Virus record (IMG/VR): IMGVR_UViG_3300043803_002147
Location: 1-28,663 of that record
Reading direction: 5' to 3' (one strand)
Length of the DNA stretch: 28,663 nucleotides
Origin: a virus
Each line of letters begins with the position of its first letter. Position 1 is the stretch's first letter. Positions 3,001 through 27,413 of the stretch are shown one piece after another. The notes under the pieces were generated by a model. It searched no databases. It was not told the DNA's origin and saw only the letters and a list, made by a program, of their open reading frames with translations. The position numbers were made by a program, and so were the translations under genes.

Positions 3001-6000
3001 GGGGATTGTCTCTCAAGTTGTCAGCAAAACTGCTTAAACCTTGTCCACCCTGTGATTGTTGAACCTGCTTCCTTTGATCCCGACTCATGCCGCGCTCTTG
3101 CAAAACAGACATTACCATAGCATCCCGTTTTCTTGTGGCTACATCATTTCCCATCGTTGCTGCATGAGATTCAAAATCACCCATAAACTTCAGAAGTTTA
3201 CGCTCTCTAGCGGTTAAATCAATTGGGGATTTAGTTATTTTTTCACGGGCTGCGGCTAATTGTTCCGGTGTCATAGCATCACGAACAGATTTAGTGACAC
3301 CACGCTCTCTCAGTATTTGCTTTGTAAGTCCATCTAATCTTTTTGTGTTACCTGATTCAAGATTCCGTGTTAATAATTGTTCAGCTTTACTTTTTTCAGT
3401 TCCAAACGCATTAATAGCATCTGCTATTGTTGCTGATCTCTCTCCCATTTTCTTGCCAATCAATTTTTGAATTACAGACTTAGGAATGACAGGAACATCA
3501 AGATTATTTAAAACACTGTTTAGTAAAGTATTTCCCAAGTTTTCTACTAGTTCTTTACTAGCAATACTGGCACTAGAAGTGCGTGGCTGAACTGTTTGTG
3601 TAGCAGTAGGCTGTTTTGTAATTGTAGGCAGGTTCTTTATTAAATCATCACCAACATCGAGTAGTGCGTATGCACCTGAATTTCGTATATTTTCAATATC
3701 CTGATCACTTTTCCCCCGTTCTTTAAGGATAGAGATAATCCTTTTATCTCGTTCTTTTTCAGTAGTAGCATTAAGTTTTTTTATGTCTGCTATGTACAAG
3801 AGAAAGTCACGTTCTTTACTGGTAGCGTTAAGAGGATTCTTAAGTATATTTTCCCGTTCAGCAAGCAACTCAGCAGAATCCATTTGATTACGAACAAAAC
3901 TACGTACACCACGCTCTCTTAATGCTTTCCTGGTAAGTTCATCTAATTTTGGTATTGCTTTACCTGACTCAACAGCACGTTTTAATGATTCTTCTGCTTT
4001 GGTTCTTTGGGCATCTGGATAAGCAGTAAGATTTTGTCCTACTCCTGTACTGATATTAGTGCTAGTGCCAACTTCCTTGACATCACGCAAGAGAGCTTTT
4101 TCTCTGTTGATTTTAGTCTGGTTTTGTAATACTTGTTCAATAGTAGGTGCTTGTTTTTTGGGGTTGGGTTTCACGGACTTATCTAGCCCCAAGATACCAC
4201 TAAAAGCATCATAAAGCGGGCTTGCGCTTAATGTTCCTAGTGACAGCAATGGATTAAACCGTGAACCGACTAGCAGAGGTAATGGACTTACGATATTATG
4301 TAAAAACCCTGTAACACCAGCAGTTTTAGTTCCCGACAAAGCTGATAAATCTACCCTAGTAATAGAACTTAATAAGTTTGTTAAAAAACCACCTTCTTTC
4401 AAAATATTGTTTTCTAATAAATTCTTAACAATTGAATTACCAAACCTTAATACCATACCACCAACAAAAGGTATGGCAAAACTTAATTTAGGAAGTAGTT
4501 GAAAACTGCGAGGTATAAATTTTAAGAACCAAGGCAATATACTCCTGGTTTGAGACAATAAAGCTTGATGCAGTGGTTGTTTAAGCGTATCCGCTAAAGA
4601 AAACAAAGCTGCGTTAACGGCATTCCGCATGACTTGACCCAATGAAGCATAACCAGATAAAGTGCTTTGGCGGATGCTTGCACTAACGGCATTAAAAATA
4701 TTTGTCACCAAATCAGTACCTAAATTTAAGTATTGATCTAATAATGTTGGTGGTATGGGTGGTACAGGTGCTATAGGTGGTTTTGGAGTTGGGTTAACAG
4801 GAAATGTGTATGCTGGTACGGTACTTCCAAGAGTTTGAGGCGGGAAAACATATTTTGGCGCAGTAGTACCAGCAGGTTGGGGGATAAGGGATGGTACGGT
4901 AGATGAAAGTGTAGCAGGTATTTGTCCAATAAGTAATTTACCGACTTGTTTAAACGCTTGGGTAGAACGCGGTGATGTTAGCCAAGAGTCAGGTATTGGA
5001 CCATATTGCCCAGCCATTTGTTTGACTGTTTGCGAAGGTGGTGTAGTCCAAGGATCTGGTATGGGTGCAAAACGAGAAGAGACCGTTACCTTATTCCCGG
5101 CAATAGTAGCTTGTACTTGTTTGTTAGCAGCAATTAAAGCACTTATACTATTTTGTGCTAGTGAATGAGTTGATCTTATGGCTGGCGACAACCCTTGGAC
5201 GACTGGTAAAATCAATTGTGCATCAGGCTTAGGCGTAAACTTTTGAGATGAGACTATTTGTGCATTTGGGTTAGGCGTAAACTTTTGAGATGAGATTATC
5301 TGTGCATTTGGATTGAGTACAAAGTTTTTACTGGAAAGTATCTGTGCGTTGGGATTGGGTACAAAGTTCCTTGGTAAAATTATTGGGCTAGTACGCTGTA
5401 TTGTTGGTGGCTGGGGTCTTGATAGTTGCGTCATCGGTTGTTGAGCAACAATTTCTTTAGCTAATCTTTGTAGATTAGACTGAGTTTGTACAAATGAGTT
5501 AATGTTTAAGCGTTCTCTAGCAGGTGGTAACAAAAACTGAGTTCTTGTTGTTTGTCTGACAGTGTTAACTAATTGCTGTACAGAATCGTTCCAAGGATCT
5601 GGGATTGGGGGAATAGTACGCTGTATTGTTGGTGGCTGGGGTCTTGATAGTTGCGTCATCGGTTGTTGAGCAACAATTTCTTTAGCTAATCTCTGTAGAT
5701 TAGACTGAGTTTGTACAAACGAGTTAATGTTTAAGCGTTCTCTAGCAGGAGGTAATAGAAACTGAGTTCTTGTTGTTTGTCTGACAGTGTTAACTAGTTG
5801 CTGTACAGAATCGTTCCAAGGATCTGGGATTGGGGGAATAGTAGTTTGTGTCCGCTGAACTAGTGGTACATTGGTTACAGGTTCAATAATCTCTCTTGCA
5901 TAAACGGGAACAGGAGGAAGTGCTGGTAGTTGGGTTCTCCGTGGTGTTGGGGTATTGCTAACGCCTAGTATCATTCGATTGTATGCGTTTTTAGCTTTGC

Positions 6001-9000
6001 GATAATTATTGTTATCTTCTGCTAAAGCGCGTTTTACAGCTTGACTATATTCTTGGTCTGTTTGTCCTGGCTGTCTTTCTGGTATTGGGGTCTTAGGTGC
6101 TACAAATCTAGGTGGCTGGTAAGCTGCTGTGTTTACAACTGACTGATTTGATGCTAACAATTTGTCAATTGACTGCCCTTTTATCCCCAATCTTTTTGAA
6201 AATTCAACTATTCTTAACAATATAGAATTAAAGCCCGCGTCAAGACCTCTGAGAACAGCGGGATCTACTGGGTTTCCATCAGCGCGAGCGATCGCAAAAT
6301 GATGGGCAGCTAGAGTTCTTTGTTCCTGAAAATCATCAACAAGTCTATTATAAACGGTGTTTTGAAGTGGAGTGAGACTTGCTGATTTGTTGCTTAAATA
6401 GCCAAGTAAATCAGAGCTAGAAAGAACATTACTGGTAATACCTTCATGCCCAAAATCAGCACCAAAGTTAACACCAATGTCAGACAATAAATCTTGAATC
6501 TTGAGTTTTTGGAAGTGTTCCTTGGTGGCTTTAATATGGGCTTGTGCCTGGTTTTCTAAATCTAAATCTTGCTTAAACACAAGGTTCATTGGGAGAGGGG
6601 TATCCCAAGGATCAGCGATCGCATTCCTAACATTTTCTGCCATGTTTCTAGCAGCATTAACAGCGGTCTGGGCTTGGTTGTTAATACCAATTCCCATGCT
6701 GCCAGCTAAGTTTTCCCCGGTATCAATGCCTTCACCTGATGGTGACGCTATTCTAAATACTTTTTTAACCGCGCTTAGTATGCCTTTAGCAAACGCAGTC
6801 ACTATCCCCAGTACACCACTGCTAACAGACAAAAATCCTTGTCCTAACGAAGAAATTAAATTAGAACCTATTTCCTTGAAGCTAGTTGTAGACTTGAGTT
6901 TTTTGGCAGTATTGACTACTTGATTTACGGCAGGGTTATTAAGTAAATTACTATTTCCGCTGTTTAACTGCTTATGGAAATCAAAATCATTTGCTTGGAA
7001 TTGTATAGGTAAAATAGGCGAAACAGCCCTGTGAACATTGGTTAATACTTCAGTAGACTTCACAGGAATGCTAGGAATATATTGATTAAATTTGTTTTGG
7101 GATTGGTTGGGTTTTAATTTTTTGTTGAACTCAGTTTCCCACTTGCGAGACTCAGTATCAACTGCCTGAAACTGCGTGGGTAGAATAGGTGAAATAGTTC
7201 TATAAGTATTAGTTAATGCTTGACCGGCTTGTTGAGGCAAATTCTGTTTAAAAGCTACAATTGGTTGATCTGTTACATCCGTGAAACCTGTAGTTACCTT
7301 TGCTATAAAAGATGATATATATTTGCGAACTGGATTTAAAATAGTTTGTACTATTGCGGATATGATATTAGTAGCTAATTCCTTTAAGTTAGCACTTCCA
7401 CTTACTACCTGTCTGATATTCCTGAAAAATTCACTTTGCTGGATTGATTGACTAGCCCTTGGTGTAACAGGTGCTTTCTGCTCTTGAGCAACTACTTCAT
7501 CGGGTTTGCTGATAAGCTTATTGATAGTTGTAGGAATATTAGAAAGGTAAGCACTATATTGATTAAATTTCTCCATAGCTGAATTAGCTTGTTCAGGAGA
7601 TAAGTCTTGAATATTGTTTAATACTTCAATTAGTTCAGTACCTTTATTATGACCTTTTTCAATAGCTTTATGGGCTTGAGAGTAAATATCGTTTGGCAAA
7701 TTCATCGTTTTGATTTGACCAGAAATATCTTGATAAGTCTGCTTAAACGATAGTATTGTTTGTTGTAATTCTTTTGGTAGTTTACTCTGTTCTAATGAGC
7801 TAGACTGTACTGCTTTAGCCACAGGTGTTGACTTTGATTTTTGTCTTTCACGACTTATCTCAGATGGTTTTTGGTTAACTGTTTCAGGGATATTGTTAAT
7901 GTAATCAACAATTTTATTAAATTTTTCTATAGCTTGTTGGACTTCTTCAGGAGATAAGCTTTCAACGCTGTCTAAAGATTCAGCAAAACTAATACCTTTG
8001 TCGCGGACAATATTAGCCATTGAATGATATTTGTTATACGCTTCATCAGATAGATTCATTTTCCGAAGTTTTTCTAAAGTATCATGATGAGACTTTCCAA
8101 CCTTTAACGCTGCTTGTTGTAGTTGTTGCACTTCTTTGGCAACTTGGTTTGGAGATCCTGATACAGACTGACTTAATGAAGTATTTGTTTTTAATGCTTC
8201 TTTAGCTTGTTGTGTATATCTACTTCCAAAACTATAAGCACCTAATTCCAAATCAAAGGTTGCGCTAACAACTTCAGGAGAATATTTACCTCTGCGTCTA
8301 TCAGCACTAAACTCTGAAACACTACTCCATTTAGCCATCTCTTTAAGAGTAGGAGATGGAGAAAACATAGATGCTTCCTGTACTGTTTTAATTTTCCCAA
8401 AATCATATTGAATAGCGTGAAACATCTCATGCAATATTGTATCAATAAGATCGTCAGACAACTTGCTAACATCTGATGAAATTAATGCTTCATAATCTTT
8501 TGCGTGTATACGTATTTTATTATCTCCTCGGTAATAAGCCCCAGCCATTCCGGCCATGCTGGGGTCAGTCTCTTTTTCTAGCAAAGGTATTTGTCGTTGG
8601 CTTGCAGTTTTTCCTGTTAGCTGCAAAACCAAATTAGCTAATTTATTATAATTGTTTCCAGTTAATTGTCCTGGCAATAAATCAGTAGTTAACTTAGGTG
8701 CTTCTAATGGTTGTTGGTTAGTTGCCATATCTGAATCTGAAGTTGAATTTAACTTCAGATTAGGAACATTGTTAACATCTGGCAAAAAGTTCTTAAATAT
8801 ATTCTTTGCAGATGTTAGAATATTTTTACCTATAGTAGCAATCGTTTTTAACAAATTGCCATTCAAGTTTGCTATACTTTTTCCTATAGGTGAAAACAAA
8901 TTAACTGCAAATTCTTTAAAGTTATTGCTGGTTAAAATAGCCGATTGCACTGACAGTAAGACATTTTTGTATACATCTTTTATTTTTGCACCAGAACCAA

Positions 9001-12000
9001 TAATTAGATTTTGTATTTTAGAGAAGGAATTTATTATGTTTTGTCCAATAGATGAAAATAAATTAATGCCAAAATCTGAAAAATTATCGCTTTTTGCAAT
9101 AATATCAATAAATGGAGACATCATGCTGGAGAAAAATGTCTCAAAGGTGTCAAATACTTTTATTTTAAGCTTATCAACTGAACTTGTTATTCCTTGTCCA
9201 ATTACAGACATAAAACCAGTACCAACCTCTTTAAAATTATTGCTTTGTTCAAAAATATTCTTAATTTTTGAGGTTAGTTTTTGATTAAATTCAGTAATTT
9301 TTTGCTCTATATTATTAAATAACTTATTCAAATTTTTTCCGATTGGCGTTGATAAAAGTAAATCATTGATCTTACTTATACTACCCTCCAAAGTTTTTTT
9401 AACTTTATCTAATTCAACGCCAATAAAACTATTTTCACCAAAATCTTTTTGCAATGACTGAATTGTTTGAGATATTATGTTTGTAGCGTTTTTATCTAAA
9501 CCTTGAGAAAGAAACTGCTTAATATTTTTGTATTTTTCCACTCCAGAATTAATATTAGCAATGACTGATTTCATAGAACCAGACACATTAACTGCACCGG
9601 AACTAATACCAATAGCTAACCCTGAAGATATCATTAGCCCTAATGCAATCATCACCTTTGATGGTGACTGAATACCCATATTCTGCTTAATCTGGGATTG
9701 GATTGAATTGCCCAGCCCAGCGATCGCATTAGTAGCAATACCAGCATTCTTGAGTATACCCTGTTCTAATCCTTTGACAACATCCTTACCCGTCTGGACA
9801 AAATTAGCTACTGGTGCAAACTTACTTATAGCTGCATTACCCAGAGAAGCTGCTGTTCCCATTGCCACAGCCCCAGCGTTATACAGATTAGCGTCGTTAC
9901 TACCGTGCATATCAGGAACGACTTTTAAGCCACCACCAAACATTTTTAACGCTTCGGCGCGTCCTATTTTATTTGCTTTTAAATATTGAGGAAGTACATT
10001 TTTAAATGTACTAGCGTAATTCAGAGTAGAGTCTTGTTGTGTTTGTTGCTTAGTATCTTGGTGTGCTTGTTTTAAGGACTTAGCGATCGCCATAGTTCTG
10101 AAAGCAGCCGCTACACCGTCGTTAGCAGACCCTATGGGATTAGTGAAAGCTTTTAATCCCAGTGGGGTAACGAGTTCCGTACCAAATTTAGCGATATTAA
10201 CTAAATGGTCAACAGCTTCTCTGGGTTGGGTAAAGGTCTTGTCTGTTACCGCGTCTTTAACAAAGTTTTTGGCTGTCCCATAAGTAGCTTGGAATAAAGT
10301 CTGATCCGGGTTAGCTGCGTGGTGTTCCCCAACCTTATCAAGCATATTTAAACCCGTGCTAGTGGCGGACATAGCAATCATGGCTTTGTTGCTAATGTCG
10401 CTTAAATTGGGTATCATGTACGTACCCGCCAAGCCTAAGCTAGATAAATCATTGAGAGGGTCAAATGCAGATTTAACGGTTGTCACCATTTTCCTAGCAC
10501 CCTCGGACACTTTGCTGTTCCCTTTTTGCATCCCAAAGAACAACCCAGAAGCTATCATCATCCCAATCTCAAACATCACCCAAGATGGAGACTGGATTTT
10601 CATCTTTTTCTCAACAGCTTCAATCAAGTCGTCAAGCATCTGTCTAGCAACATCAGACACACCATCAGAGCCATGCTTAACACCTTTTGCTAATCCTGCG
10701 TCAATATCAATACCTAATTGTTGAGCTAAAGGCGCATAGTGGGTAAGCTGCTTATCAAAAATACTTTTTTCTTCTGTGTTTAATTTGCCCAACAATCCCT
10801 TGGCATTTGTTTGTCTGGACTTGAGTTGAGACTTACCCCCAGCATGAACTTTACTAAGATCGCTGTTAATTGTTTTGTCAAAACCAGCATCTTGGGCTTG
10901 TTTGGCAATAGCATCTATGTCTGCAACTGCAAGCTTGGTATTATCTATAAATTTTTTAATTTTCTCTTTTGTAGCTTTAATTTCTGCTGAAGTTCCCGTT
11001 AATTTAACTATGTCAAACTCAGATTTTAATTTTTTATATTCTGCATTAAAATATTGATTTATGCCCGTGAATGAATCACTAACACCCTTTAAAGATATTT
11101 CTTTTTGCAGTTTTATTTCATCTGATTTTTTGGGTTTTCCTATTTGTAATGGTACTAATTCTTCACCGTTCTCTCTAGCAGTTGCCTCAGCATACTGCTT
11201 AGACAAATCAATATTTTTTAATGTATTAGTTTTTATGGCTTCAAAGTGCTGTTTTAGTTGCTGTGGTACTTGACTAGCAGTGGTTTCAACAGGCAGTAAT
11301 TCAAGTTCTGGTTGTGGTTTTTTGGTTTTTTTGGGAATATTTACAGGAATATCCAGTGCTGTTTGCAATTCTGTTTTTACTTGCTCAACAGTACTATTTA
11401 AATTTGGTGACTGAACATTTGTAATTTTTGACTGCAAAGCAAATTCGTTTAATGATTGAGCTGCGCTACTTAAATTCAGGGAAGCTTGCCCAAGTGCATC
11501 AAAAGAAGAATTTTGAAGAGGTTGAGTATAGTTTATTAAAGGAACAGAACTAGCAACAGAAGAACTACTCACTGATGGTGACTTGGCTTCAGAGTTGCCA
11601 ACATTAGAAGAATTGCTACCAATAGGACTAATATTTCCGCCCGTAGATATAAATTTCTTAGCTACTGAATAAGTGTTTGGAAGTATAGTTTTAAGTAAAT
11701 TATTAGTGGCACTTTTAGCTGCTGTGGCTAATTGTTTGCCCACCACTTGAGTAAAAGATTCACCGCCTCGCCCTTCTATTTCATTAAACAAAGCATTTGC
11801 AGCTTTTTGAACTTGAGTAGAAGCTTTATTTAAAACCCCTTGTGAACTTTTGCGAACAGCTTTAGATATAGCAACTTTGGACTGTTGACCTAACCCTTCA
11901 AGCGTCTCATCAATACTTAACAAAAAAGTATTACTGATACCACTTAATGTATTTGTGACGATAGCAGGAGCCTGAAAGGATTGAAGCTGGGAATAATCAT

Positions 12001-13264
12001 CAACCATACCTTTGATAATTGCTTCTATTCTTGCTTTTTCTTCTTTAGGATCAGATTGTGCTTTCTTCCCTATACCAAAAAACCGTAATAGCCCTCTAGC
12101 TGCTGAACCACCAGCAGCTTCAAAATCAACACCTAAATCGTCGTCTAACCCTAAATTGCGTTGTTTTTTACCCACCCTATTTGCAGTAGATACAGAAGAA
12201 ACTACTGTAGTAGTTTTGCGTGGAGTTGTGACTACTGTTATCGGTGAAGTTGTTGGTGCAGTAGTAACTGGACTTGCGATCGCAGTAGGTAACGTTGCCG
12301 CTGTAGTCTTTTGCTGAGGCGCAGATTTAATCACGGACGGAGCCGTCAATGTTGTTACAGGTTGATTTGTAACAACGGTTTTTTGAGTAATTGTACTTGA
12401 TTGAGGAGTAACATTAGATTTTTTGGTGTTAGCGTCATGTACTTTAATAAAAGTATCAACACCATCTTTAAGAATAGCTTCTACTCGCTTCTGTTCATTT
12501 TTAGGATCTGATTGCGCTTTTTTACCTACACCAAAATAACGCAACATCATGTTACTAGTTATCCTAGTCATAGTTGGAATATCCACACCAACAGCATCTT
12601 CAATACCTCTATTAATCCCATCAGTAAAACCTTTACCAAGTCCTCCAAATATCCCGTCCATGATAGCTCTACCTGGATTAACTACCATGTCTACTTTTTG
12701 AACTTTATTTGGCGATGAAGCTTCTTTCGCTGTTTGTTGTTGAGCCGTCGCTGAAGATTGTTCTGACATTTCTTCTTTAACAGCATTTTTCACAGCATCA
12801 GCTAAACTTTTTTCTAGTTGCTTACTTAAATCAGATTCAACAGTAATAGTAATAGTTCTACTAGAAAGCCCGCCTAATCTTTCTTCTAATTCATCAAGAC
12901 TTTTGGTATCAGTATTAACTTTAATTGGATTGTTATCAAAATATTTATTAACTTCTTTAAGATGTTGTACTTTTAAATTTAAGTGCTTATTTAAATCAGT
13001 TAATTCTTTGTCATCAACATTAACAACAATAGGATTATTAGTAAAATATTTATTAACTTCTTTAAGATGTTGTACTTTTAAATTTAAGTGCTTATTTAAA
13101 TCAACTAAACTATCATCGTCCACTCCAACATTAAGATTGATATTTTCAAAGCTTTTTTCTACTGCCACAGCCGCTTCATAAGCCTTCTTCTTAGCCCGTT
13201 CCAAAGTCTTTTCTAGCTCAGAAGAATCAGCAGATAACTCTACAATTAATTCGCCTAAATTCAT
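1..13264 (-). CDS. Giant phage tail tape measure protein, C-terminus cut by window edge
   Basis: This protein sets tail length and is ejected ahead of the DNA at infection. The start ATG (13262-13264) has an AGGAG ribosome site 8 bases upstream. The frame is the same wherever I translated it (13.2, 8.4, 7.2, 5.4, 4.1, 2.7 kb and the left edge), giving at least 4,421 residues. Visible parts: a duplicated charged helical repeat (about 50-115); SPS-containing modules of the type common in tape measures (about 885-908, 1190-1215, 2170-2195), the first two followed by a glycine-rich hydrophobic helix; a HEMFH...EFSAD metallopeptidase-like domain (H1612, E1613, H1616, E1651); proline-rich repeats with IPDPW motifs (about 2475-2682); duplicated ERG-motif helices (about 3110-3390); a TIGR02675-like tape-measure domain (about 3640-3790) with SYSQLAIAAKDSKMEGQG and QQLGEKFPPAMATFARAMGV; and several hydrophobic segments after 3590. 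The tape-measure identity is secure; the boundaries of internal domains are approximate. Confidence 0.95.
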   Translation of the reverse strand, partial: MNLGELIVELSADSSELEKTLERAKKKAYEAAVAVEKSFENINLNVGVDDDSLVDLNKHLNLKVQHLKEVNKYFTNNPIVVNVDDKELTDLNKHLNLKVQHLKEVNKYFDNNPIKVNTDTKSLDELEERLGGLSSRTITITVESDLSKQLEKSLADAVKNAVKEEMSEQSSATAQQQTAKEASSPNKVQKVDMVVNPGRAIMDGIFGGLGKGFTDGINRGIEDAVGVDIPTMTRITSNMMLRYFGVGKKAQSDPKNEQKRVEAILKDGVDTFIKVHDANTKKSNVTPQSSTITQKTVVTNQPVTTLTAPSVIKSAPQQKTTAATLPTAIASPVTTAPTTSPITVVTTPRKTTTVVSSVSTANRVGKKQRNLGLDDDLGVDFEAAGGSAARGLLRFFGIGKKAQSDPKEEKARIEAIIKGMVDDYSQLQSFQAPAIVTNTLSGISNTFLLSIDETLEGLGQQSKVAISKAVRKSSQGVLNKASTQVQKAANALFNEIEGRGGESFTQVVGKQLATAAKSATNNLLKTILPNTYSVAKKFISTGGNISPIGSNSSNVGNSEAKSPSVSSSSVASSVPLINYTQPLQNSSFDALGQASLNLSSAAQSLNEFALQSKITNVQSPNLNSTVEQVKTELQTALDIPVNIPKKTKKPQPELELLPVETTASQVPQQLKQHFEAIKTNTLKNIDLSKQYAEATARENGEELVPLQIGKPKKSDEIKLQKEISLKGVSDSFTGINQYFNAEYKKLKSEFDIVKLTGTSAEIKATKEKIKKFIDNTKLAVADIDAIAKQAQDAGFDKTINSDLSKVHAGGKSQLKSRQTNAKGLLGKLNTEEKSIFDKQLTHYAPLAQQLGIDIDAGLAKGVKHGSDGVSDVARQMLDDLIEAVEKKMKIQSPSWVMFEIGMMIASGLFFGMQKGNSKVSEGARKMVTTVKSAFDPLNDLSSLGLAGTYMIPNLSDISNKAMIAMSATSTGLNMLDKVGEHHAANPDQTLFQATYGTAKNFVKDAVTDKTFTQPREAVDHLVNIAKFGTELVTPLGLKAFTNPIGSANDGVAAAFRTMAIAKSLKQAHQDTKQQTQQDSTLNYASTFKNVLPQYLKANKIGRAEALKMFGGGLKVVPDMHGSNDANLYNAGAVAMGTAASLGNAAISKFAPVANFVQTGKDVVKGLEQGILKNAGIATNAIAGLGNSIQSQIKQNMGIQSPSKVMIALGLMISSGLAIGISSGAVNVSGSMKSVIANINSGVEKYKNIKQFLSQGLDKNATNIISQTIQSLQKDFGENSFIGVELDKVKKTLEGSISKINDLLLSTPIGKNLNKLFNNIEQKITEFNQKLTSKIKNIFEQSNNFKEVGTGFMSVIGQGITSSVDKLKIKVFDTFETFFSSMMSPFIDIIAKSDNFSDFGINLFSSIGQNIINSFSKIQNLIIGSGAKIKDVYKNVLLSVQSAILTSNNFKEFAVNLFSPIGKSIANLNGNLLKTIATIGKNILTSAKNIFKNFLPDVNNVPNLKLNSTSDSDMATNQQPLEAPKLTTDLLPGQLTGNNYNKLANLVLQLTGKTASQRQIPLLEKETDPSMAGMAGAYYRGDNKIRIHAKDYEALISSDVSKLSDDLIDTILHEMFHAIQYDFGKIKTVQEASMFSPSPTLKEMAKWSSVSEFSADRRRGKYSPEVVSATFDLELGAYSFGSRYTQQAKEALKTNTSLSQSVSGSPNQVAKEVQQLQQAALKVGKSHHDTLEKLRKMNLSDEAYNKYHSMANIVRDKGISFAESLDSVESLSPEEVQQAIEKFNKIVDYINNIPETVNQKPSEISRERQKSKSTPVAKAVQSSSLEQSKLPKELQQTILSFKQTYQDISGQIKTMNLPNDIYSQAHKAIEKGHNKGTELIEVLNNIQDLSPEQANSAMEKFNQYSAYLSNIPTTINKLISKPDEVVAQEQKAPVTPRASQSIQQSEFFRNIRQVVSGSANLKELATNIISAIVQTILNPVRKYISSFIAKVTTGFTDVTDQPIVAFKQNLPQQAGQALTNTYRTISPILPTQFQAVDTESRKWETEFNKKLKPNQSQNKFNQYIPSIPVKSTEVLTNVHRAVSPILPIQFQANDFDFHKQLNSGNSNLLNNPAVNQVVNTAKKLKSTTSFKEIGSNLISSLGQGFLSVSSGVLGIVTAFAKGILSAVKKVFRIASPSGEGIDTGENLAGSMGIGINNQAQTAVNAARNMAENVRNAIADPWDTPLPMNLVFKQDLDLENQAQAHIKATKEHFQKLKIQDLLSDIGVNFGADFGHEGITSNVLSSSDLLGYLSNKSASLTPLQNTVYNRLVDDFQEQRTLAAHHFAIARADGNPVDPAVLRGLDAGFNSILLRIVEFSKRLGIKGQSIDKLLASNQSVVNTAAYQPPRFVAPKTPIPERQPGQTDQEYSQAVKRALAEDNNNYRKAKNAYNRMILGVSNTPTPRRTQLPALPPVPVYAREIIEPVTNVPLVQRTQTTIPPIPDPWNDSVQQLVNTVRQTTRTQFLLPPARERLNINSFVQTQSNLQRLAKEIVAQQPMTQLSRPQPPTIQRTIPPIPDPWNDSVQQLVNTVRQTTRTQFLLPPARERLNINSFVQTQSNLQRLAKEIVAQQPMTQLSRPQPPTIQRTSPIILPRNFVPNPNAQILSSKNFVLNPNAQIISSQKFTPNPNAQIVSSQKFTPKPDAQLILPVVQGLSPAIRSTHSLAQNSISALIAANKQVQATIAGNKVTVSSRFAPIPDPWTTPPSQTVKQMAGQYGPIPDSWLTSPRSTQAFKQVGKLLIGQIPATLSSTVPSLIPQPAGTTAPKYVFPPQTLGSTVPAYTFPVNPTPKPPIAPVPPIPPTLLDQYLNLGTDLVTNIFNAVSASIRQSTLSGYASLGQVMRNAVNAALFSLADTLKQPLHQALLSQTRSILPWFLKFIPRSFQLLPKLSFAIPFVGGMVLRFGNSIVKNLLENNILKEGGFLTNLLSSITRVDLSALSGTKTAGVTGFLHNIVSPLPLLVGSRFNPLLSLGTLSASPLYDAFSGILGLDKSVKPNPKKQAPTIEQVLQNQTKINREKALLRDVKEVGTSTNISTGVGQNLTAYPDAQRTKAEESLKRAVESGKAIPKLDELTRKALRERGVRSFVRNQMDSAELLAERENILKNPLNATSKERDFLLYIADIKKLNATTEKERDKRIISILKERGKSDQDIENIRNSGAYALLDVGDDLIKNLPTITKQPTATQTVQPRTSSASIASKELVENLGNTLLNSVLNNLDVPVIPKSVIQKLIGKKMGERSATIADAINAFGTEKSKAEQLLTRNLESGNTKRLDGLTKQILRERGVTKSVRDAMTPEQLAAAREKITKSPIDLTARERKLLKFMGDFESHAATMGNDVATRKRDAMVMSVLQERGMSRDQRKQVQQSQGGQGLSSFADNLRDNPRTGGFMGRLTEAYASNDQDAMKGLVKEGLRKTGMSAKQIDAIDPKLLDTATAGLMTTLSGLQAKFREKGFDMGKALAKGLKDSMVNLANAKDDLEYNAKKVMGQANFGDSVGLIFRRMFRGTAATQGQFAEMYNQMGAGVKKAMFGGSKEGDEMFPNVLQFFGSIATTLAPITTMIGAITPLLLPLAPIITGIGMAVNMVAPHVAKLIDGIQRVEVLQRRFKFLGGSKEGGIAEFKYAKDIANKLNVPSEVAANSYSQLAIAAKDSKMEGQGVKDLFEGITSSLSALGINGQDASLVFMAYTQILAKGKLSMEELRQQLGEKFPPAMATFARAMGVTVPEMNELVASGGILSQDILPKVAKVLKEDYGSAASDQAGGLVVALNKLGNVGFEITTIFTDKLGGTLAFFVNTFANILGVLSGALKELIPLVKSFMIGFAATISIGLTIILSKFGPFVVAMKSLQNFLLATFSAITTNMMPMVIGIVSDVADGWLGAEKNLIDNMSQGINNMIVVVFSTIDTAMRSMSDHQVSFGTVFGGLIQGAEQAGSIIDWLKGVFAGFFKILPSGIVEILAIVFMLEQGTGLLVMALWPAIKGLWGGITGIFGATAKAFYGVMGSLKAVVELMMTSSAVASNATNNVAKSGVRSMAIVQGALGFLSKALLHFGLAYAVLMFSKGDFSDPLRESINKSTADINKHLNQVRLNINQTTEAFNKATKSVEKLGNTITHALPAKGVQLDVRSLWGGGDWKWDDAVRETNAKYRQGGSGPSAMDVIGTGALYAGGAGYAAAAGSKAIKAIVDLAVKTAPILASNAALGSAPGPRMAVPLFGRLATAIAPVVAIMGPWGLAIAGLIATIVAVGVALDAFAPKITEAQLNTEEKGGLPEEIKQIINAKKAGERLDASSMQVIKLYKDQQLSNERLKEFMASIGLDGKNPYSFVARPVVPMTQEQKEEFEDTDPVKNITKSIEDKKASLQELEKNAGTTETEKSKARSKQGYKTVQE
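3080..3935 (-). repeat. Duplicated ~205-residue module with ERG helices inside the tape measure
   Basis: Two related segments are encoded at about 3690-3935 and 3080-3325. Each carries a pair of motifs about 70 residues apart: ALRERGVRSF then ILKERGKSDQ in the first, and ILRERGVTKS then VLQERGMSRD in the second. Each is followed by a stretch rich in Lys, Arg and Glu (for example NATSKERDFLL and DLTARERKLLK). The DNA copies have diverged, so this is an old internal duplication. The function is unknown; helical packing along the tail lumen is an inference. Confidence 0.6.
5219..5386 (-). repeat. Four tandem 42-bp units (14 residues) in the tape measure
   Basis: Unit starts fall at 5219, 5261, 5303 and 5345, exactly 42 bp apart. 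The middle unit encodes KFTPNPNAQIVSSQ, with variants in the others. The repeat keeps the reading frame and lies next to the larger 225-bp duplication in a proline-rich, probably extended part of the protein. Confidence 0.85.
5391..5840 (-). repeat. Near-identical 225-bp tandem duplication (75 residues) in the tape measure
   Basis: Copy one is 5391-5615 and copy two 5616-5840, with only a handful of mismatches (for example the aatgag/aacgag and ggtggt/ggaggt variants). Each encodes a segment with the motif PIPDPWNDSVQQLVNTV and a following NINSFVQTQSNLQRL. The high nucleotide identity shows a recent duplication. Related IPDPW/IPDSW motifs occur further on at about 5055 and 4990. Confidence 0.92.
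12021..12532 (-). repeat. Diverged pair of GKKAQSDPK motifs 152 residues apart in the tape measure
   Basis: Segments beginning at 12477 and 12021, 456 bp apart, both encode a glycine-rich helix ending in F-G-(V/I)-GKKAQSDPK, then E-x3-R-(V/I)-EAI and a hydrophobic tail. They are a second, older duplication in the N-terminal fifth of the protein. Serine/threonine-rich linkers separate them. Confidence 0.7.
12923..13111 (-). repeat. Two 35-residue charged helical repeats near the tape-measure N-terminus
   Basis: The DNA at 12923-13006 recurs at 13028-13111 with a period of 105 bp. The repeated peptide includes LNKHLNLKVQHLKEVNKYF followed by NNPI and a Val/Asp-rich strand. The composition suggests alternating helix and short strand. 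The period is a multiple of three and the frame is kept. Confidence 0.85.
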
Positions 13265-18904: not shown

Positions 18905-19852
18905 TTACACCAAACGAATTTCAGGATATAAAGCGGCTAGTTGTCCATCCATATAAGGCAACCTAGACCCATAAACATCGCCTTCTAAGTAGAGAGCGTA
19001 ATTCTGGCTTTCTCTGTACAGCAAATCAATAGGAACTTCAGGAGACAACATTCCTAAGTTTTCCGGTGAACTAGCAGCCACACCTATAGGCATACCCAAA
19101 GGCACGGATACAGAAGCTGCACTAATGGTGACAACATCTGTAACTGTGTTAACCGCAGAGATTGTACCTATAGCTGCGTTAGGAGCAAATACAGCGGCAG
19201 AAGCGGTAGAAGTACCATTACTAGCTGTAGTAGTAGCAGTAAAACTGTAAAGACTGGTAAAATCTTTTGCCCAAAAGACGATTACCATAGCAGGGGAAGT
19301 ACCAGCCACCGATAAACCAGAAACCAGTCTAGAAGTATAAGAATTAGCAGCGATCGCTCCAATTACTTTATTAGCCACGTTAGTATTGGTTGCTGCCAAT
19401 GAACCACCAATATCGCCAGCCACCACAGTATAAGTAACAGCAACACCATTGACGGTTACAGTGATAGTATCATTAGCAGCCCATCCTGTACTTGAGGATG
19501 AGATTGTCAATCTTACTGAAGGTGCAATGATAGAGAGAACATCAGTAGGTATGAAAATACCAGCAGTACCGACAGGGAAAGAAATACTGGTAGCACTAGC
19601 AGCGGTAGCAGTTCTAGTAGTCATACGGGGTAAAATCCGATTGCCCACCAACGAAGTTGAAGTACCACTACCAGCAAAGAAACCAGGAGCAAAAATTTTA
19701 ACGAGCTTACGGATAGCCCCAGTAGATCCCGTTGCATAGGCTTCATTTAAGCGGGTGTATCGGGTAGGGGTTGTTTCTGTAGCCCGTGCTAATACAGGAA
19801 AAAACCCTGATAACTCATCGTCGTAAAGATACGACTCATAACGCATAGTCAT
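18905..19852 (-). CDS. Head decoration or capsid-associated protein, probable
   Basis: A 315-residue protein between the prohead protease and the capsid, the lambda gpD position. The ends (about 1-100 and 255-315) look like a small folded decoration domain: LYDDELSGFFPVLARATE at the start and SQNYALYLEGDVYGSRLPYM at the end. Between them lies a long Ser/Thr/Ala/Val-rich insert that resembles the phage fibre/tail repeat with T-V-T-V-N-G-V-A-V-TYTVVAGD. This makes it far longer than the usual 110-130-residue decoration protein. It could instead be another capsid-associated protein. Confidence 0.6.
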   Translation of the reverse strand: MTMRYESYLYDDELSGFFPVLARATETTPTRYTRLNEAYATGSTGAIRKLVKIFAPGFFAGSGTSTSLVGNRILPRMTTRTATAASATSISFPVGTAGIFIPTDVLSIIAPSVRLTISSSSTGWAANDTITVTVNGVAVTYTVVAGDIGGSLAATNTNVANKVIGAIAANSYTSRLVSGLSVAGTSPAMVIVFWAKDFTSLYSFTATTTASNGTSTASAAVFAPNAAIGTISAVNTVTDVVTISAASVSVPLGMPIGVAASSPENLGMLSPEVPIDLLYRESQNYALYLEGDVYGSRLPYMDGQLAALYPEIRLV

Positions 19853-19856
19853 AGTA

Positions 19857-20996
19857 TTAATCTATAATTGGTTTAGATTGACCTAAAGATTGAATAATCT
19901 GTAAAGCCCGTGTTTCTAAATCAGCAGGATTAGACTGACCAGCATTGACAATAGGCTCAGAAATTGACTGTTTCAGATTAAGTAAAGGTGCGGTTCTCTT
20001 ATTGATTAATTCAAGATGAAACTCAATATAACCCAAGCGATCGCTCTTGGTATGGTGAGCAATATCATTACTGGGTTTTTCAGAAAATAATTCACCAAAC
20101 TCAACAGCAGCTAGTTTGCCTTCAGACACCAAATCTTCAGCTTTTTGACGTAAATCATAATAGCGAGATACCACTGATTCACGCTTTTCAAAAGTAGAAA
20201 TAGCAGTGTTTTTTTCCTCAATAGACTTACTTAAAACCTTAATTTGTTCACTCAGTCTATTGTTTTCATTGGTTAACAAAACCTGCTTTTCAGACAATAA
20301 AACATTAGTATTATTAGCTTCTGCTAAAGCGGCTTTAACCGTGACTAATTCCAATTCAGTTTTCTCATTCATTTTTCGATTGGGGTTGAAATTGGGGTCT
20401 CCCTTAACTGAAATATCATCAAAACATACAAGAGACTTTCCGTATCCAACTGTTGGGTCCGCTGGTATGTCTTCAGAAGATATTTCCAATAGAACTATCT
20501 TTGTCGCTTCTAAGAGGGCTTTCTTTGTCAGCATAACGCAACCATCTTTATCAGTAGCGTATTCTGCCGGGGTGATAACACGGTATTCCTCTACGGTATA
20601 TCCAAAGCTGATACCTCCAGAAGTACCATCTTCAATGTCAGACATGAATTGTTCTGCTAAAGCGTTCCTAGACAGCTTCACAGTTGCCATGCCGCGATCG
20701 CCGTCCAAGCCGACTTCAGTAACAATGCCGATTTTTTGACCACGTGCATGATTTTTGAGAAAAGGACAAGTTTTATTAGTAACCCTTGTCAAGTCCCAGC
20801 TACGAGCATCGTGGGATAATTGTTCATCAAAAACGACACTAGCACCTTCAGGTAAATCACCATAGAGAGAATATCTTTCACAGATATTACTCTTAGAAGA
20901 AAACGAGAATCCTAAAGTTCTTGCGTCCCGATTTAATAGCAAATCAGAACTTAAAACCTTAGTTAAGATAGTTTTATTTTTAGTTGTATTTGGCAT
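19857..20996 (-). CDS. HK97-family prohead protease fused to a scaffold-like coiled coil
   Basis: The serine protease (family U35-like) matures the head. Using the ATG at 20994-20996 the protein is 379 residues. It shows FLKNHA with the catalytic His (about H83), GGISFGYTV with the catalytic Ser (about S130) and LLEISSEDIPADP, the usual L-x-E-x-S...P-A-x-P signature (about 169-181). After about residue 208 (MNEKTELELV) comes a heptad-rich coiled coil to about 290 (ENNRLSEQIKVLSKSIEEKN) and a charged tail. So protease and scaffold appear to be one polypeptide. An upstream in-frame start (21167 or 21131) is rejected because it would read through the divergent promoter region and the palindrome. 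Ribosome site weak. Confidence 0.85.
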   Translation of the reverse strand: MPNTTKNKTILTKVLSSDLLLNRDARTLGFSFSSKSNICERYSLYGDLPEGASVVFDEQLSHDARSWDLTRVTNKTCPFLKNHARGQKIGIVTEVGLDGDRGMATVKLSRNALAEQFMSDIEDGTSGGISFGYTVEEYRVITPAEYATDKDGCVMLTKKALLEATKIVLLEISSEDIPADPTVGYGKSLVCFDDISVKGDPNFNPNRKMNEKTELELVTVKAALAEANNTNVLLSEKQVLLTNENNRLSEQIKVLSKSIEEKNTAISTFEKRESVVSRYYDLRQKAEDLVSEGKLAAVEFGELFSEKPSNDIAHHTKSDRLGYIEFHLELINKRTAPLLNLKQSISEPIVNAGQSNPADLETRALQIIQSLGQSKPIID

Positions 20997-21020
20997 AACT
21001 AAAACATTTAAAACTGCTTT

Positions 21021-21039
21021 TAGTTTAACCGTTAAACTA
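21021..21039. promoter_or_regulatory. Perfect 19-bp palindrome, putative operator between late operon and XRE gene
   Basis: TAGTTTAAC-C-GTTAAACTA, two perfect 9-bp arms around one base. It lies 25 bases upstream of the protease ATG and about 90 upstream of the XRE start, in the only gap between these divergent genes. That is where a small XRE repressor would be expected to bind. Function is inferred from symmetry and position. Confidence 0.6.
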
Positions 21040-21090
21040 ATTTTTGACTTAATTAAATCTGCGAAAAAAGCGGGAATCAGCGGTTTTCTT

Positions 21091-21099
21091 TGATATATT
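21091..21099 (+). promoter_or_regulatory. Possible extended -10 promoter for the XRE gene
   Basis: TGATATATT is a TGN-TATATT extended -10 about 30 bases before the XRE start. The -35 is not recognisable. The stretch is very A+T-rich, so chance is possible. Confidence 0.3.
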
Positions 21100-21129
21100 A
21101 TTAGTGGTGTAAATAATAATATATCAGTC

Positions 21130-21396
21130 ATGATTGTAGAACCAAATAGCTTTGAAACCTTGTCCACAGAAGGGAAAATAGGAATCTTAATTTATATAGC
21201 TCGTGAGAAAGCAGGAATGTCTAGGAAACAACTAGCAGCAAAAATTGATAAATCCGTCAACGTAATAATTGCCATAGAAGACTTGTTCAAAGAACGGGAC
21301 GGCAGAAGACAGACCATAGCATTTAGTGAGATTGAATCAATTGCCAATGCTTTAAATCTCCCTATTCAATCTTTACTCCCAAAAAACGTATATTGA
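21130..21396 (+). CDS. XRE-family helix-turn-helix regulator
   Basis: An 88-residue DNA-binding protein. Residues about 16-75 form the five-helix XRE domain: GILIYIAREKAGMSRKQLA with the turn, AAKIDKSVNVIIAIEDL as the recognition helix region, and FSEIESIANALNLPIQSLL as the closing helices. There is no extra domain. It is divergent from the structural operon with a palindromic site between, so a role in controlling its own gene and the late operon is likely. The start ATG overlaps a minus-strand ATG (tCATGa), but that minus start is not the one I use for the protease. No strong ribosome site. Confidence 0.85.
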   Translation: MIVEPNSFETLSTEGKIGILIYIAREKAGMSRKQLAAKIDKSVNVIIAIEDLFKERDGRRQTIAFSEIESIANALNLPIQSLLPKNVY

Positions 21397-21400
21397 CAAG

Positions 21401-21454
21401 AAAAAATCTAGCGACATTGAGGCGATCGCTAGATTCACGTAACCAGGTATGCTC
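21401..21454 (-). ncRNA. Small RNA cassette 1 (promoter, ~54-nt transcript, terminator hairpin)
   Basis: On the minus strand an extended -10 TGCTACAAT (21461-21469) is followed by a short predicted transcript ending in a perfect 10-bp hairpin (arms 21405-21414 and 21426-21435) and a U6 tract (21401-21406). The right arm contains a HIP1 octamer. It is the third of three tandem cassettes of the same design. Transcript ends are predicted, not measured. Confidence 0.5.
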
Positions 21455-21472
21455 ATTACGATTGTAGCACAT

Positions 21473-21535
21473 AAAAAAATCCAGTGATGTTGAAGTGATC
21501 ACTGGACCGACTTGATAGTAACAAGGGGTTCTATT
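21473..21535 (-). ncRNA. Small RNA cassette 2 (promoter, ~62-nt transcript, terminator hairpin)
   Basis: A perfect extended -10, TGCTATAAT (21542-21550, minus strand), starts right after the terminator of cassette 3. The predicted transcript ends in a 9-bp hairpin (arms 21480-21488 and 21498-21506) with a U7 tract (21473-21479). Compared with cassette 1, the hairpin has paired changes (T-A to C-G and C-G to T-A) that keep the stem, and the HIP1 octamer is replaced by GTGATCAC. Confidence 0.55.
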
Positions 21536-21553
21536 TTCATAATTATAGCACAC

Positions 21554-21603
21554 AAAAAAATCAGTGGCTATAATTCCACTGATTCCGCTAAATTCACGCA
21601 CTT
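21554..21603 (-). ncRNA. Small RNA cassette 3 (promoter, ~50-nt transcript, terminator hairpin)
   Basis: A TATAAT (21610-21615, minus strand) precedes a short predicted transcript with CGTGAATTTAGCG, which recurs almost unchanged in cassette 1. It ends in a 9-bp hairpin (arms 21559-21567 and 21576-21584) and a U7 tract (21554-21560). The -10 overlaps the leader of the divergent plus-strand gene at 21631. Confidence 0.45.
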
Positions 21604-21630
21604 GACTATATTATAATCTAAAGAGGAAAT

Positions 21631-21918
21631 ATGAACAAAAATACTGAGATACCAGCAGAAAGTTTCTTAAATACAGATGTAACCCTTAAACGTACAGCAA
21701 TGCTATACAAAATACTTAATAACAGCAAAGAAGCATCAGCAACACGAAACATTGCCATTAACTCTGATTGCAACTATGAAGATCATAGCTTCAAAAAAAA
21801 TCAACACATTGCTAACGAAATCACAAGACGCTTAAATAAAATATTAGAAGGCTTTAAACAGCAAAAAAGAGTCCAGCGTTTTTATGAAGCGTCTAAACTA
21901 TTTGATGAACACAACTGA
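21631..21918 (+). CDS. Small helical protein of unknown function
   Basis: A 95-residue, lysine- and asparagine-rich protein with a good AGAGG ribosome site. The C-terminal half (QHIANEITRRLNKILEGFK, then RFYEASKLFDE) is a strongly charged helix. The N-terminal half is polar. I do not recognise a family. It lies next to the XRE gene and the small RNA cassettes and converges on the 287-residue gene, so an early or regulatory role is possible but unproven. Confidence 0.7.
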   Translation: MNKNTEIPAESFLNTDVTLKRTAMLYKILNNSKEASATRNIAINSDCNYEDHSFKKNQHIANEITRRLNKILEGFKQQKRVQRFYEASKLFDEHN

Positions 21919-21923
21919 AAACT

Positions 21924-21948
21924 TAGGTAAATCACATTAACTTACCTA
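21924..21948. terminator. Weak hairpin between convergent genes
   Basis: TAGGTAA (21924-21930) and TTACCTA (21942-21948) form a 7-bp stem between the ends of the 21631 gene and the convergent 287-residue gene. There is no long T tract on either side, only AAGTTTTC on the minus strand. It might be a weak two-way terminator. Confidence 0.3.
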
Positions 21949-21992
21949 GACACAATTAAAAATATTTTATTTCACTGAAAATAGTAGAAGTA

Positions 21993-22856
21993 TTAGTAGG
22001 GTACTTCTACTATACTTCCTAGTGGTTTATCGACTAGCTTAGACGTAAGTGATATAGCTTGTTGGGCTATTTGTCCTGCTTTGAGTAGCATACGTTCCCA
22101 AACCATCCTAAACAAGCCTTTACGTCTGGTCCACTTCCAGATAATGACTTTAAAGACTGGGGTTGGTTCAACAATCTCACCATCATCACTTAGCGTTTCA
22201 ATAATCACATCACCATGTCCATGACAATTGCCACGAAAGTCGCCAGTAACATGAAATAAGGCATTATAGAACTGAACCATCATCATGCCACCGTGATCTG
22301 GCATACACTCAAAACTGGAAACATTCTCTGAATGTCTTAACTTCCAGTTAATCCTGTCCCTGCGGACCTGATCGAACACCTGATAGAAAATCAGGATCTT
22401 GGGAATATCAACCCGTTCTAAGAGCGGGGGGGTAGCCGTACCTTGTCCTTCCACACCATTAGCCACACCCCAAGCCGCGCCCTTGGGACGGGAATCAATA
22501 TCAAACCAGAACAAACCCCACTGGATATGGAGTTTACGGTAAGTTCTTAAAGTGGTTTTATTATAAAACGCACCTTTCCAGTTGCTTGTCAAATAATCTT
22601 CTAAGTATTTGTGAGCGACCATGATATTCACATTCTGGTCCTTACTGCAAAGCAGCAGATTCTTCCAGTTGTCCAAATCCATATTCTTGGCATTGACTCC
22701 GTAATCAACAGCAGCCCGCCACATTAAGGCGTTGAGAATACCCATGTGAGTGAATAAAACCCGGTCAGTCAGGTCATTGGCGATCGCATAAGCCAACTCC
22801 CGAATTTCCGCTACTTCCTGTTCCGTTAAAATTGTTTCTACTACTTGATTTTCCAT
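21993..22856 (-). CDS. Conserved-looking phage protein of unknown function (287 aa)
   Basis: I do not recognise this soluble, Trp- and Met-rich protein. It has a helical N-terminus (TEQEVAEIRELAYAIANDL), WKNLLLCSKDQNVNIMVAHKYL, a strand-rich core with LHIQWGLFWFDIDSRPKGAAW and PKILIFYQVFDQVRRDRIN, a His/Gly cluster NALFHVTGDFRGNCHGHGD that could bind metal, a basic WKWTRRKGLFRMVWERML helix, and a Val/Pro-rich end. It sits just upstream of the head operon where a portal gene would usually be, but nothing in it resembles a portal. A consensus promoter lies about 120 bases upstream, so it probably has its own transcript with a long structured leader. Confidence 0.75.
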   Translation of the reverse strand: MENQVVETILTEQEVAEIRELAYAIANDLTDRVLFTHMGILNALMWRAAVDYGVNAKNMDLDNWKNLLLCSKDQNVNIMVAHKYLEDYLTSNWKGAFYNKTTLRTYRKLHIQWGLFWFDIDSRPKGAAWGVANGVEGQGTATPPLLERVDIPKILIFYQVFDQVRRDRINWKLRHSENVSSFECMPDHGGMMMVQFYNALFHVTGDFRGNCHGHGDVIIETLSDDGEIVEPTPVFKVIIWKWTRRKGLFRMVWERMLLKAGQIAQQAISLTSKLVDKPLGSIVEVPY

Positions 22857-22915
22857 AAACCATGAGTTACCATTTAATTATGTTTAATTATGTGTATCTT
22901 TAAACCTTATTTCCC

Positions 22916-22965
22916 AACGCTGTAGCGGTTGACAGACATCAAACCGTTACAGCGTTTTTGTTTTT
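22916..22965 (+). terminator. Strong hairpin with T tract; also the 5' leader of the 287-residue gene
   Basis: A 15-bp stem with one G-U pair (arms 22916-22930 and 22942-22956) is followed on the plus strand by TTTTTGTTTTT, the form of an intrinsic terminator. On the minus strand the same hairpin lies in the predicted 120-base leader of the 21993-22856 gene, between its promoter and its start codon. Either or both roles are possible. Confidence 0.65.
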
Positions 22966-22982
22966 GTAACCATCACACCTTT

Positions 22983-23011
22983 AGTGTAACATAGTTTTTT
23001 ATCCCTGTCAA
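22983..23011 (-). promoter_or_regulatory. Sigma-70-type promoter for the 287-residue gene
   Basis: On the minus strand TTGACA (23006-23011), a 17-base spacer and TACACT (22983-22988) match the consensus well. The predicted start is near 22976. Confidence 0.6.
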
Positions 23012-27052: not shown

Positions 27053-27397
27053 ATGACTAACTACCAAGTTCGATATGGAAGTAATGCCAAAAAGCATAAA
27101 AAAAAGTGCCGCAACGCACATATAAGAACCCATGGGATTTGTTGTGTGTGCATGATCAATAAGTCTGAACAAGTCCATCACTCTAGTTACAGGAAGTCAG
27201 GAGACAGATATGGGATTAATATTTTCCCAGTCTGTAGAAACTGTCATAAAACTGTCTGTCATAGTCCCAAAAATTGGATTATTGACCTTATAAATCCAGA
27301 ATGGAAGAATCATAATACCGCTGAGTTTACAGCCCGCTTAAAGCGAAATTATCAACGGTTGCGGAAATTAAAAATTAATGTTAAAAAACCCTCTTAA
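27053..27397 (+). CDS. HNH-type endonuclease-like protein
   Basis: A 114-residue basic protein with a zinc-finger HNH arrangement: CCVC (30-33), then VHHSSYRKSGD with the His pair (42-43), PVCRNCH (60-65) and a further His (70). The C-x2-C, HH, C-x2-C-H pattern is that of phage HNH nucleases; the pair of His residues is where the catalytic His normally lies. The N-terminus is very basic (KKHKKKCRNAH). It could be a homing-type or packaging-linked nuclease. There is no strong ribosome site and a terminator stands just upstream, so its promoter is unclear. Confidence 0.8.
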   Translation: MTNYQVRYGSNAKKHKKKCRNAHIRTHGICCVCMINKSEQVHHSSYRKSGDRYGINIFPVCRNCHKTVCHSPKNWIIDLINPEWKNHNTAEFTARLKRNYQRLRKLKINVKKPS

Positions 27398-27413
27398 CTA
27401 TCAAGAGGGTTTT
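27385..27413. terminator. Two-way terminator between convergent genes
   Basis: An 11-bp stem AAAACCCTCTT/AAGAGGGTTTT (27385-27395, 27403-27413) overlapping the HNH stop. A T tract follows on the plus strand (TTTT), and on the minus strand a T6 run is present, so it can end both the HNH transcript and the minus-strand acidic-protein transcript. Confidence 0.85.

Follow-up and report, generated by a model that had tools for sequence, protein, structure and literature searches.

The DNA analysed here (hereafter the window) is a viral record of 28,663 bases from IMG/VR (IMGVR_UViG_3300043803_002147) with a G+C content of 38.6%, in which the plus strand carries the terminase gene and the head genes form a leftward block. 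This block includes genes for a protease-type head protein and the major head protein, both recognized by matches to PHROGs, and ends in an open frame of 4421 aa that matches tape-measure families; the frame, which occupies positions 2-13264 of the minus strand and is still open at the window end, is very long for a tape-measure gene. The HIP1 octamer GCGATCGC is present in 17 copies in the window, against 0.04 expected, and the protein encoded at 21993-22856 has its sole relative (E up to 1e-5) among 50,697 phage records in Aphanizomenon phage vB_AphaS-CL131, with 47% identity. From these two observations we infer a cyanobacterial host, and the phage is probably a cyanophage. A profile search of genome contigs, for which the 21993-22856 protein alignment was used, yielded no relative, the DNA of 19800-23000 had no match in the 50,697 phage records, and a search of genome contigs for the junction pattern described below returned no named cyanobacterium among the matches listed.

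The locus of interest is bounded by a convergent XRE-type gene (21130-21396, plus strand; HTH_3, PF01381, E 7e-7; PHROG transcriptional regulator) and a divergent 95-aa ORF (21631-21918, plus strand), for which no Pfam or PHROG match was found. Between them, on the minus strand, lies a row of three hairpins, each followed by a T6-7 tract (21615-21401; array 1), and the XRE-type gene has its stop codon 4 nt from the last T tract. We number the units c1, c2 and c3 from the upstream end on the minus strand; an earlier sequence-only reading of this DNA had numbered them from the other end. Unit c1 starts with a -10-like TATAAT (21615-21610, within 21606-21618) embedded in the self-complementary ATTATAAT that is common to the array and the divergent ORF at 21631, and continues with the 5' tail of a predicted transcript (21586-21604) and a terminator hairpin with T7 (21554-21585; hairpin 21585-21559). 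Right behind this T tract stands the extended -10 element of c2, TGTGCTATAAT (21552-21542), followed by a predicted 5' tail (21509-21535) and a terminator hairpin with T7 (21473-21507; hairpin 21507-21480). Unit c3 has the extended -10 element TGTGCTACAAT (21471-21461), a predicted 5' tail (21435-21454) and a terminator hairpin with T6 (21401-21434; hairpin 21434-21406) that contains a HIP1 octamer at 21422-21429. The distance from the -10 to the next hairpin is 24-33 nt, with no gene enclosed, three times in a row, and if RNA synthesis is assumed to start 6-7 nt behind the -10, the predicted transcripts would be 51-63 nt long.

The view of the locus as three complete -10/hairpin/T cassettes, from which the sequence-only reading proceeded, thus has to be amended at one end: the three hairpins with their T tracts and two TGTGCTAYAAT elements are all in place, but c1 has TATAAT only, and shares it with the divergent ORF. 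The abutment of a promoter-like element on the preceding T tract was perceived correctly at both junctions. In the window, the pattern T6-N-TGTGCTAYAAT is confined to these two places, against an average of 0.00 copies over 100 shuffles; the 27-nt junction is a direct repeat with its copies 81 nt apart, and because these are related by duplication, the two occurrences are not independent. The short blocks said to be shared by the 5' parts are likewise there, with CGTGAATYTAGCG at 21598 and 21439, TGTTACT at 21523 and GGTTACG at 21444.

The T runs of all three hairpins are on the minus strand only, and the folding z-scores are -3.2, -2.8 and -1.8 for c1, c2 and c3, respectively. A terminator scan with loops of at most 8 recovered hairpin 1 only of the three and gave 7 sites in 5 kb against 3.4 expected; the wider scans, of the window and of the related genomes G003, G006 and G008, admit loops up to 11. 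Compensatory stem changes had been claimed as a mark of selection for structure, and two stem pairs are indeed changed on both sides between hairpins 2 and 3 (C-G/U-A and U-A/C-G), but an uncompensated C.A stands at the second pair in 2 of 5 distinct aligned hairpin sequences (hairpin 2 of loci L015 and L011), and the covariation score is reached by 22 of 500 column shuffles.

Thirteen relatives hold the array region (L013 ends before it), and in none of them are the units separated by a gene. Unit c3 is kept in all 13, with its -10 reading TGTG[CT]TA[CT]AAT, c2 together with its extended -10 in 12, and a complete c1 in 11; a search for the c3 core found one copy in each of 13 viral contigs, every one already known to hold the array locus. 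In L010, the 5' end of the 95-aa ORF, including its start, has been lost together with the -10 and the tail of c1, with all three hairpins kept, and in L012, c3 is the sole complete unit, c1 and c2 being lost or damaged; both deletions have ends in or beside the array. From these two states we conclude that c1 and c2 are dispensable. The sequence-only reading had specified in advance that a homologous locus with a hairpin kept and its -10 lost would count against small RNA genes, and this is what L010 displays for c1. The -10 of c1, deleted in L010, is TTGTAAT in L012 and is invariant across the other haplotypes; its tail, absent from L010 and L012, shows otherwise just a single 1-base deletion, in L011. 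As an independent unit, c1 makes a weak case.

Variable sites were counted across the seven haplotypes in which c1, c2 and c3 are all present, the L010 and L012 haplotypes being left out. The -10 elements vary at 1 of 28 sites, the single change affecting the free base of the TGn motif, the stems at 2/58 and the tails at 2/62 (0/18 in c1, 2/26 in c2, and 0/18 in c3, where L012 has two changes); the loops of hairpins 2 and 3 vary at 3/15 sites, the spacers between the -10 and the predicted start at 5/18, and fourfold sites at 137/569. The tails thus vary far less than fourfold sites do (p 3e-5). Intergenic DNA elsewhere is also below fourfold sites in variability, and compared with two intergenic control stretches (63/551) the difference of the tails has p 0.049, which becomes p 0.074 against all intergenic controls, when 0/36 and 3/50 are added (66/637). 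Hence constraint on the tails is established in part: it is marginal beyond that of other intergenic DNA. With L010 and L012 included, the mean pairwise difference is 0.012 for tails, 0.040 for -10s and 0.153 for fourfold sites. With their conserved -10s and terminators and their little-changed tails, c2 and c3 have the appearance of short transcription units complete in themselves.

Does such an arrangement exceed what is expected by chance or what is usual in phages? In G003, a 93-kb relative, 39 hairpin-T5 terminators were detected, compared with a mean of 9.3 in ten first-order resampled sequences, and a -10-like element stands 5-60 nt upstream of 8 of these 39 (mean 0.3 resampled), in a scan whose limits were set after the arrays had been seen. 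Six of the eight form two tandem triplets, namely the orthologue of array 1 and a second one unrelated to it. Terminators with an upstream -10-like element number 3 of 12 in the window, 3 of 18 in G006 and 5 of 21 in G008, where they comprise two units of each array and one single unit; G008 has two units per array because the c1 -10 is lost and the third unit of the second array fails the scan. The junction itself was compared across viral contigs at 112 of 119 loci among the matches listed, the seven loci of the window's own group being left out. Of 110 such junctions, among the matches listed, 57 have a hairpin ahead of the T run, while for other T6+ runs the count is 131 of 1528; the rows are not independent, because related phages are included. 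In bacterial genomes (119 loci) the respective figures are 19/118 and 162/3009. The terminator directly followed by an extended -10 is a common phage arrangement, and therefore the -10s of array 1 are credible as promoters. A second terminator within 130 nt was found at 1 of 53 viral junctions with enough downstream sequence (L017), among the matches listed. The unusual part is the gene-less unit, not the terminator/-10 junction.

The second triplet (array 2) lies at 46.9-47.2 kb of G003 (L137 6926-7170), is unrelated in sequence to array 1 and is present in 8/8 loci. Here too, a gene converges on the array, and its stop codon is 4 nt from the array's end; the 413-aa product of this gene (L137 7170-8411, minus strand) shows several HTH-like matches, all of them weak, in addition to one to Ren-like exclusion proteins (PHROG 142, E 3e-7). 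Among six haplotypes from the eight loci, no site is variable in the -10s of units 1 and 2 (0/20) or in the hairpins (0/50), and the tails vary at 7/89 sites, with gaps in two tails in addition. The sequence between units 2 and 3 varies at 6/28 sites and that beyond the array at 9/61; the difference between the tails and this surrounding sequence (7/89 vs 15/89) is not significant (p 0.11). In 7 of 8 loci, the -10 of the third unit, TGATATGAT, is a poor one. The middle unit, which contains AAAGGAGGTAGATG and a short frame, opens with AAAGGAGGTAGAT, a perfect ribosome-site sequence, and its start codon is not conserved. The short frame was considered as coding, an idea that was dropped with the finding that the ATG is ATA in L340 and L342, and derivation of the unit as a relic of the start of the 413-aa gene was likewise abandoned, that gene starting with TTGATAAAC behind a different leader. 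Two unrelated rows of gene-less promoter/terminator units in one phage have, as far as their layout can tell, the look of small RNA genes.

Additional evidence comes from a sister group of phages, in which the XRE-type protein and the protease are 69% identical to those of the window and the slot of array 1 is occupied by two cassette-like units. One consists of GGTAATAT, a tail and a hairpin with T4, and the other of TATGCTATAGT, a tail and a hairpin with a weak T tract. Across nine loci representing seven haplotypes and essentially two lineages, this module, with limits drawn on the alignment after the arrays had been seen, varies at 4/125 sites compared with 47/249 in its flanks (p 1e-5), and its tails including the first -10 are invariant (0/49). 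A seed homology between the tails of the window and those of the sister group (CATACC..., CCTTGTTA) appeared good by eye, but was rejected, as 21 of 300 shuffled sets reach the best score. A third group, with a protease of 58-59% identity, has no array at the locus in the two examined (L372 and L373) of its three loci; in L373, the XRE gene is directly adjacent to another gene. In the same contig, reading of the translation by eye suggests extra, intein-like sequence ahead of the ATPase part of the terminase frame (203-2185).

Comparison of the related phages also brought out a particular mode of hairpin change. In L005 (part of G003), hairpin 1 has an inverted loop on an intact stem, and the same has happened to other hairpins, one of them in array 2. 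Since the loops are thus free to change, pairing through loops is argued against, and the tails become the candidate for the functional part. By reading, there are about eight clear sites at which the hairpin interior is inverted and the stem kept between phages that are otherwise about 91-99% identical (window 21559-21585, 27385-27413 and 26987; L136 15245; L137 6957; L315 7647; L141 3238; L312 3236), and hairpin-genome comparisons comprise 73 inverted, 1624 same and 262 other cases. Minute hairpin inversions of chloroplast DNA are a similar phenomenon. Hairpin 1 contains TGGCTATAAT (21565-21574), which in the window is on the plus strand and faces the 95-aa ORF, and in L005, after the flip, is on the minus strand and faces the array; the flip could be a switch of promoter direction, or neutral.

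Among known systems, the closest in layout is NsiR1 of Nostoc sp. PCC 7120, which the sequence-only reading had brought up. It is a tandem array of twelve ~60-nt RNAs with individual DIF1 promoters upstream of hetF, in which seven of the 12 copies are identical and diverged copies can act on different targets (PMC9045159). The likeness consists in tandem short units with promoters of their own next to a regulatory gene, here at the sequence level and with a doubtful c1 promoter. NsiR1, however, is a host locus, whereas here three diverged units are found in a phage, and the NsiR1 copies are largely identical, whereas in array 1 the tails differ and only the hairpin and junction blocks are common. 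The sequence TCCGGA, which we take to be the core of the DIF promoter motif, is absent from the window, and neither array 1 nor array 2 has an Rfam match. The missing TCCGGA, the lack of an Rfam match and the divergence of the copies lead us to regard the array as one that may work like a tandem small RNA array but is not NsiR1. Short non-coding RNA genes are found in phages and prophages in general; what is predicted here are tandem, diverging triplets. Non-coding RNA genes of cyanophages have been found by Rfam matches, and such an array is not among them in the available portion of that report (PMC9964418). A literature search produced no phage-borne tandem small RNA array in the titles among the matches listed, which is weak evidence of absence.

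We put the probability that array 1 consists of small non-coding RNA genes acting through their tails at roughly 0.47; that short RNAs are made from the array at all seems probable. Under this reading, an extended -10 directly behind the previous terminator would start RNA synthesis, about 18-30 nt of unstructured 5' tail would follow, and the hairpin with its U tract would end the transcript at roughly 51-63 nt. Duplication would have spread the 3' hairpin and promoter blocks while the 5' tails diverged, and the likely use would be trans-acting base pairing by the tails in the infected cyanobacterium. That the promoters fire, that the RNAs begin and end at the predicted positions and that the tails act by base pairing are all inferred. 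The array proposed earlier may be said to have survived in c2 and c3, with the second triplet and the sister module on its side, and to have lost c1 as an independent member. Target prediction for the tails, recommended at the time, identified no phage gene start and gave no backing to the antisense or sponge role that had been proposed with it: when the six tails were matched against 69 candidate gene starts of G003 by duplex energies, with 60 letter-shuffles each, none was clearly better than its shuffles, the best, a tail of array 2, being equalled by 6/60 and the others by 11, 19, 43, 45 and 58 of 60.

What else could account for these rows of units? Four alternatives are taken up here from the most to the least probable: modules resembling promoter early stem-loops, terminators in tandem, a leader that works by antitermination and a gene of 79 codons. 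The promoter early stem-loops (PeSLs) of T4-type phages are described as linked to gene shuffling (PMC4503421, PMC3950731). Like array 1, they are small intergenic modules with a hairpin directly joined to a promoter. PeSLs stand immediately upstream of the genes that they drive. The array could, then, be a set of ordinary terminator/promoter boundary modules that have lost the intervening genes and serve as recombination points, any short RNAs being functionless. The association of PeSLs with shuffling, the L010 and L012 deletions that end in or beside the array and the frequency of the junction elsewhere (a hairpin at 57/110 junctions, and no second terminator within 130 nt at 52 of 53, among the matches listed) all speak for this possibility, which we consider unlikely but far from negligible: most relatives retain the 5' tails, one phage has two separate gene-less triplets, and 0/13 relatives have a gene between the units. 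Furthermore, unlike in a PeSL, the next hairpin comes 24-33 nt behind the -10 with no gene, and the modules form a triplet.

Tandem unidirectional terminators might instead block leftward transcription from the 21993-22856 gene that would run antisense into the XRE gene and on into the structural operon. The orientation of the T runs and the placement of the array, with the leftward gene on one side and the structural genes on the other, fit this role, as does the four-T tract that is all that the gene's own hairpin, near 21980, has in the window; however, that hairpin has a five-T tract in G006, L012 retains one complete unit of three, and terminators alone account neither for the conserved extended -10s between them nor for a second array in a different setting, so we find this explanation rather improbable. 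Less probable still is a late-operon leader of the lambda pR'-tR' type, in which constitutive promoters would stop at the terminators until a phage antiterminator allows transcription to continue into the structural operon. Both array 1 and the sister module point at the structural operon, which begins roughly 270-410 nt downstream of array 1 (the start codon is uncertain), but the transcription would cross the XRE gene in antisense, array 2 is located elsewhere and faces a regulator-like gene, and in the third group this protease/XRE pair occurs with no array. Finally, a GTG-started frame of 79 codons runs through all three units (21601-21362) and is open, at 78-79 codons, in 6/7 tested loci that have its start, or 6/9 with L010 and L012 counted. 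That this is a real gene is very hard to believe, considering the early frameshift in L011, the absence of the start region from L010 and L012, the codons rewritten by the loop inversion of L005 and a ribosome site that is not evident by eye.

If the small RNA reading is pursued beyond array 1, a broader scenario suggests itself, under which these cyanophages would keep at least two tandem small RNA arrays, each with a copied hairpin/promoter block and each facing a convergent gene for a DNA-binding regulator whose stop codon is 4 nt away. Such arrays would then be platforms on which the 5' seed is replaced to give diverging sets of trans-acting RNAs, with an array of the same kind persisting in the sister group. 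The two propositions taken together are doubtful at present. A tandem array with diverging tails in a phage would be a compact natural example of how small RNA families arise and change their targets.
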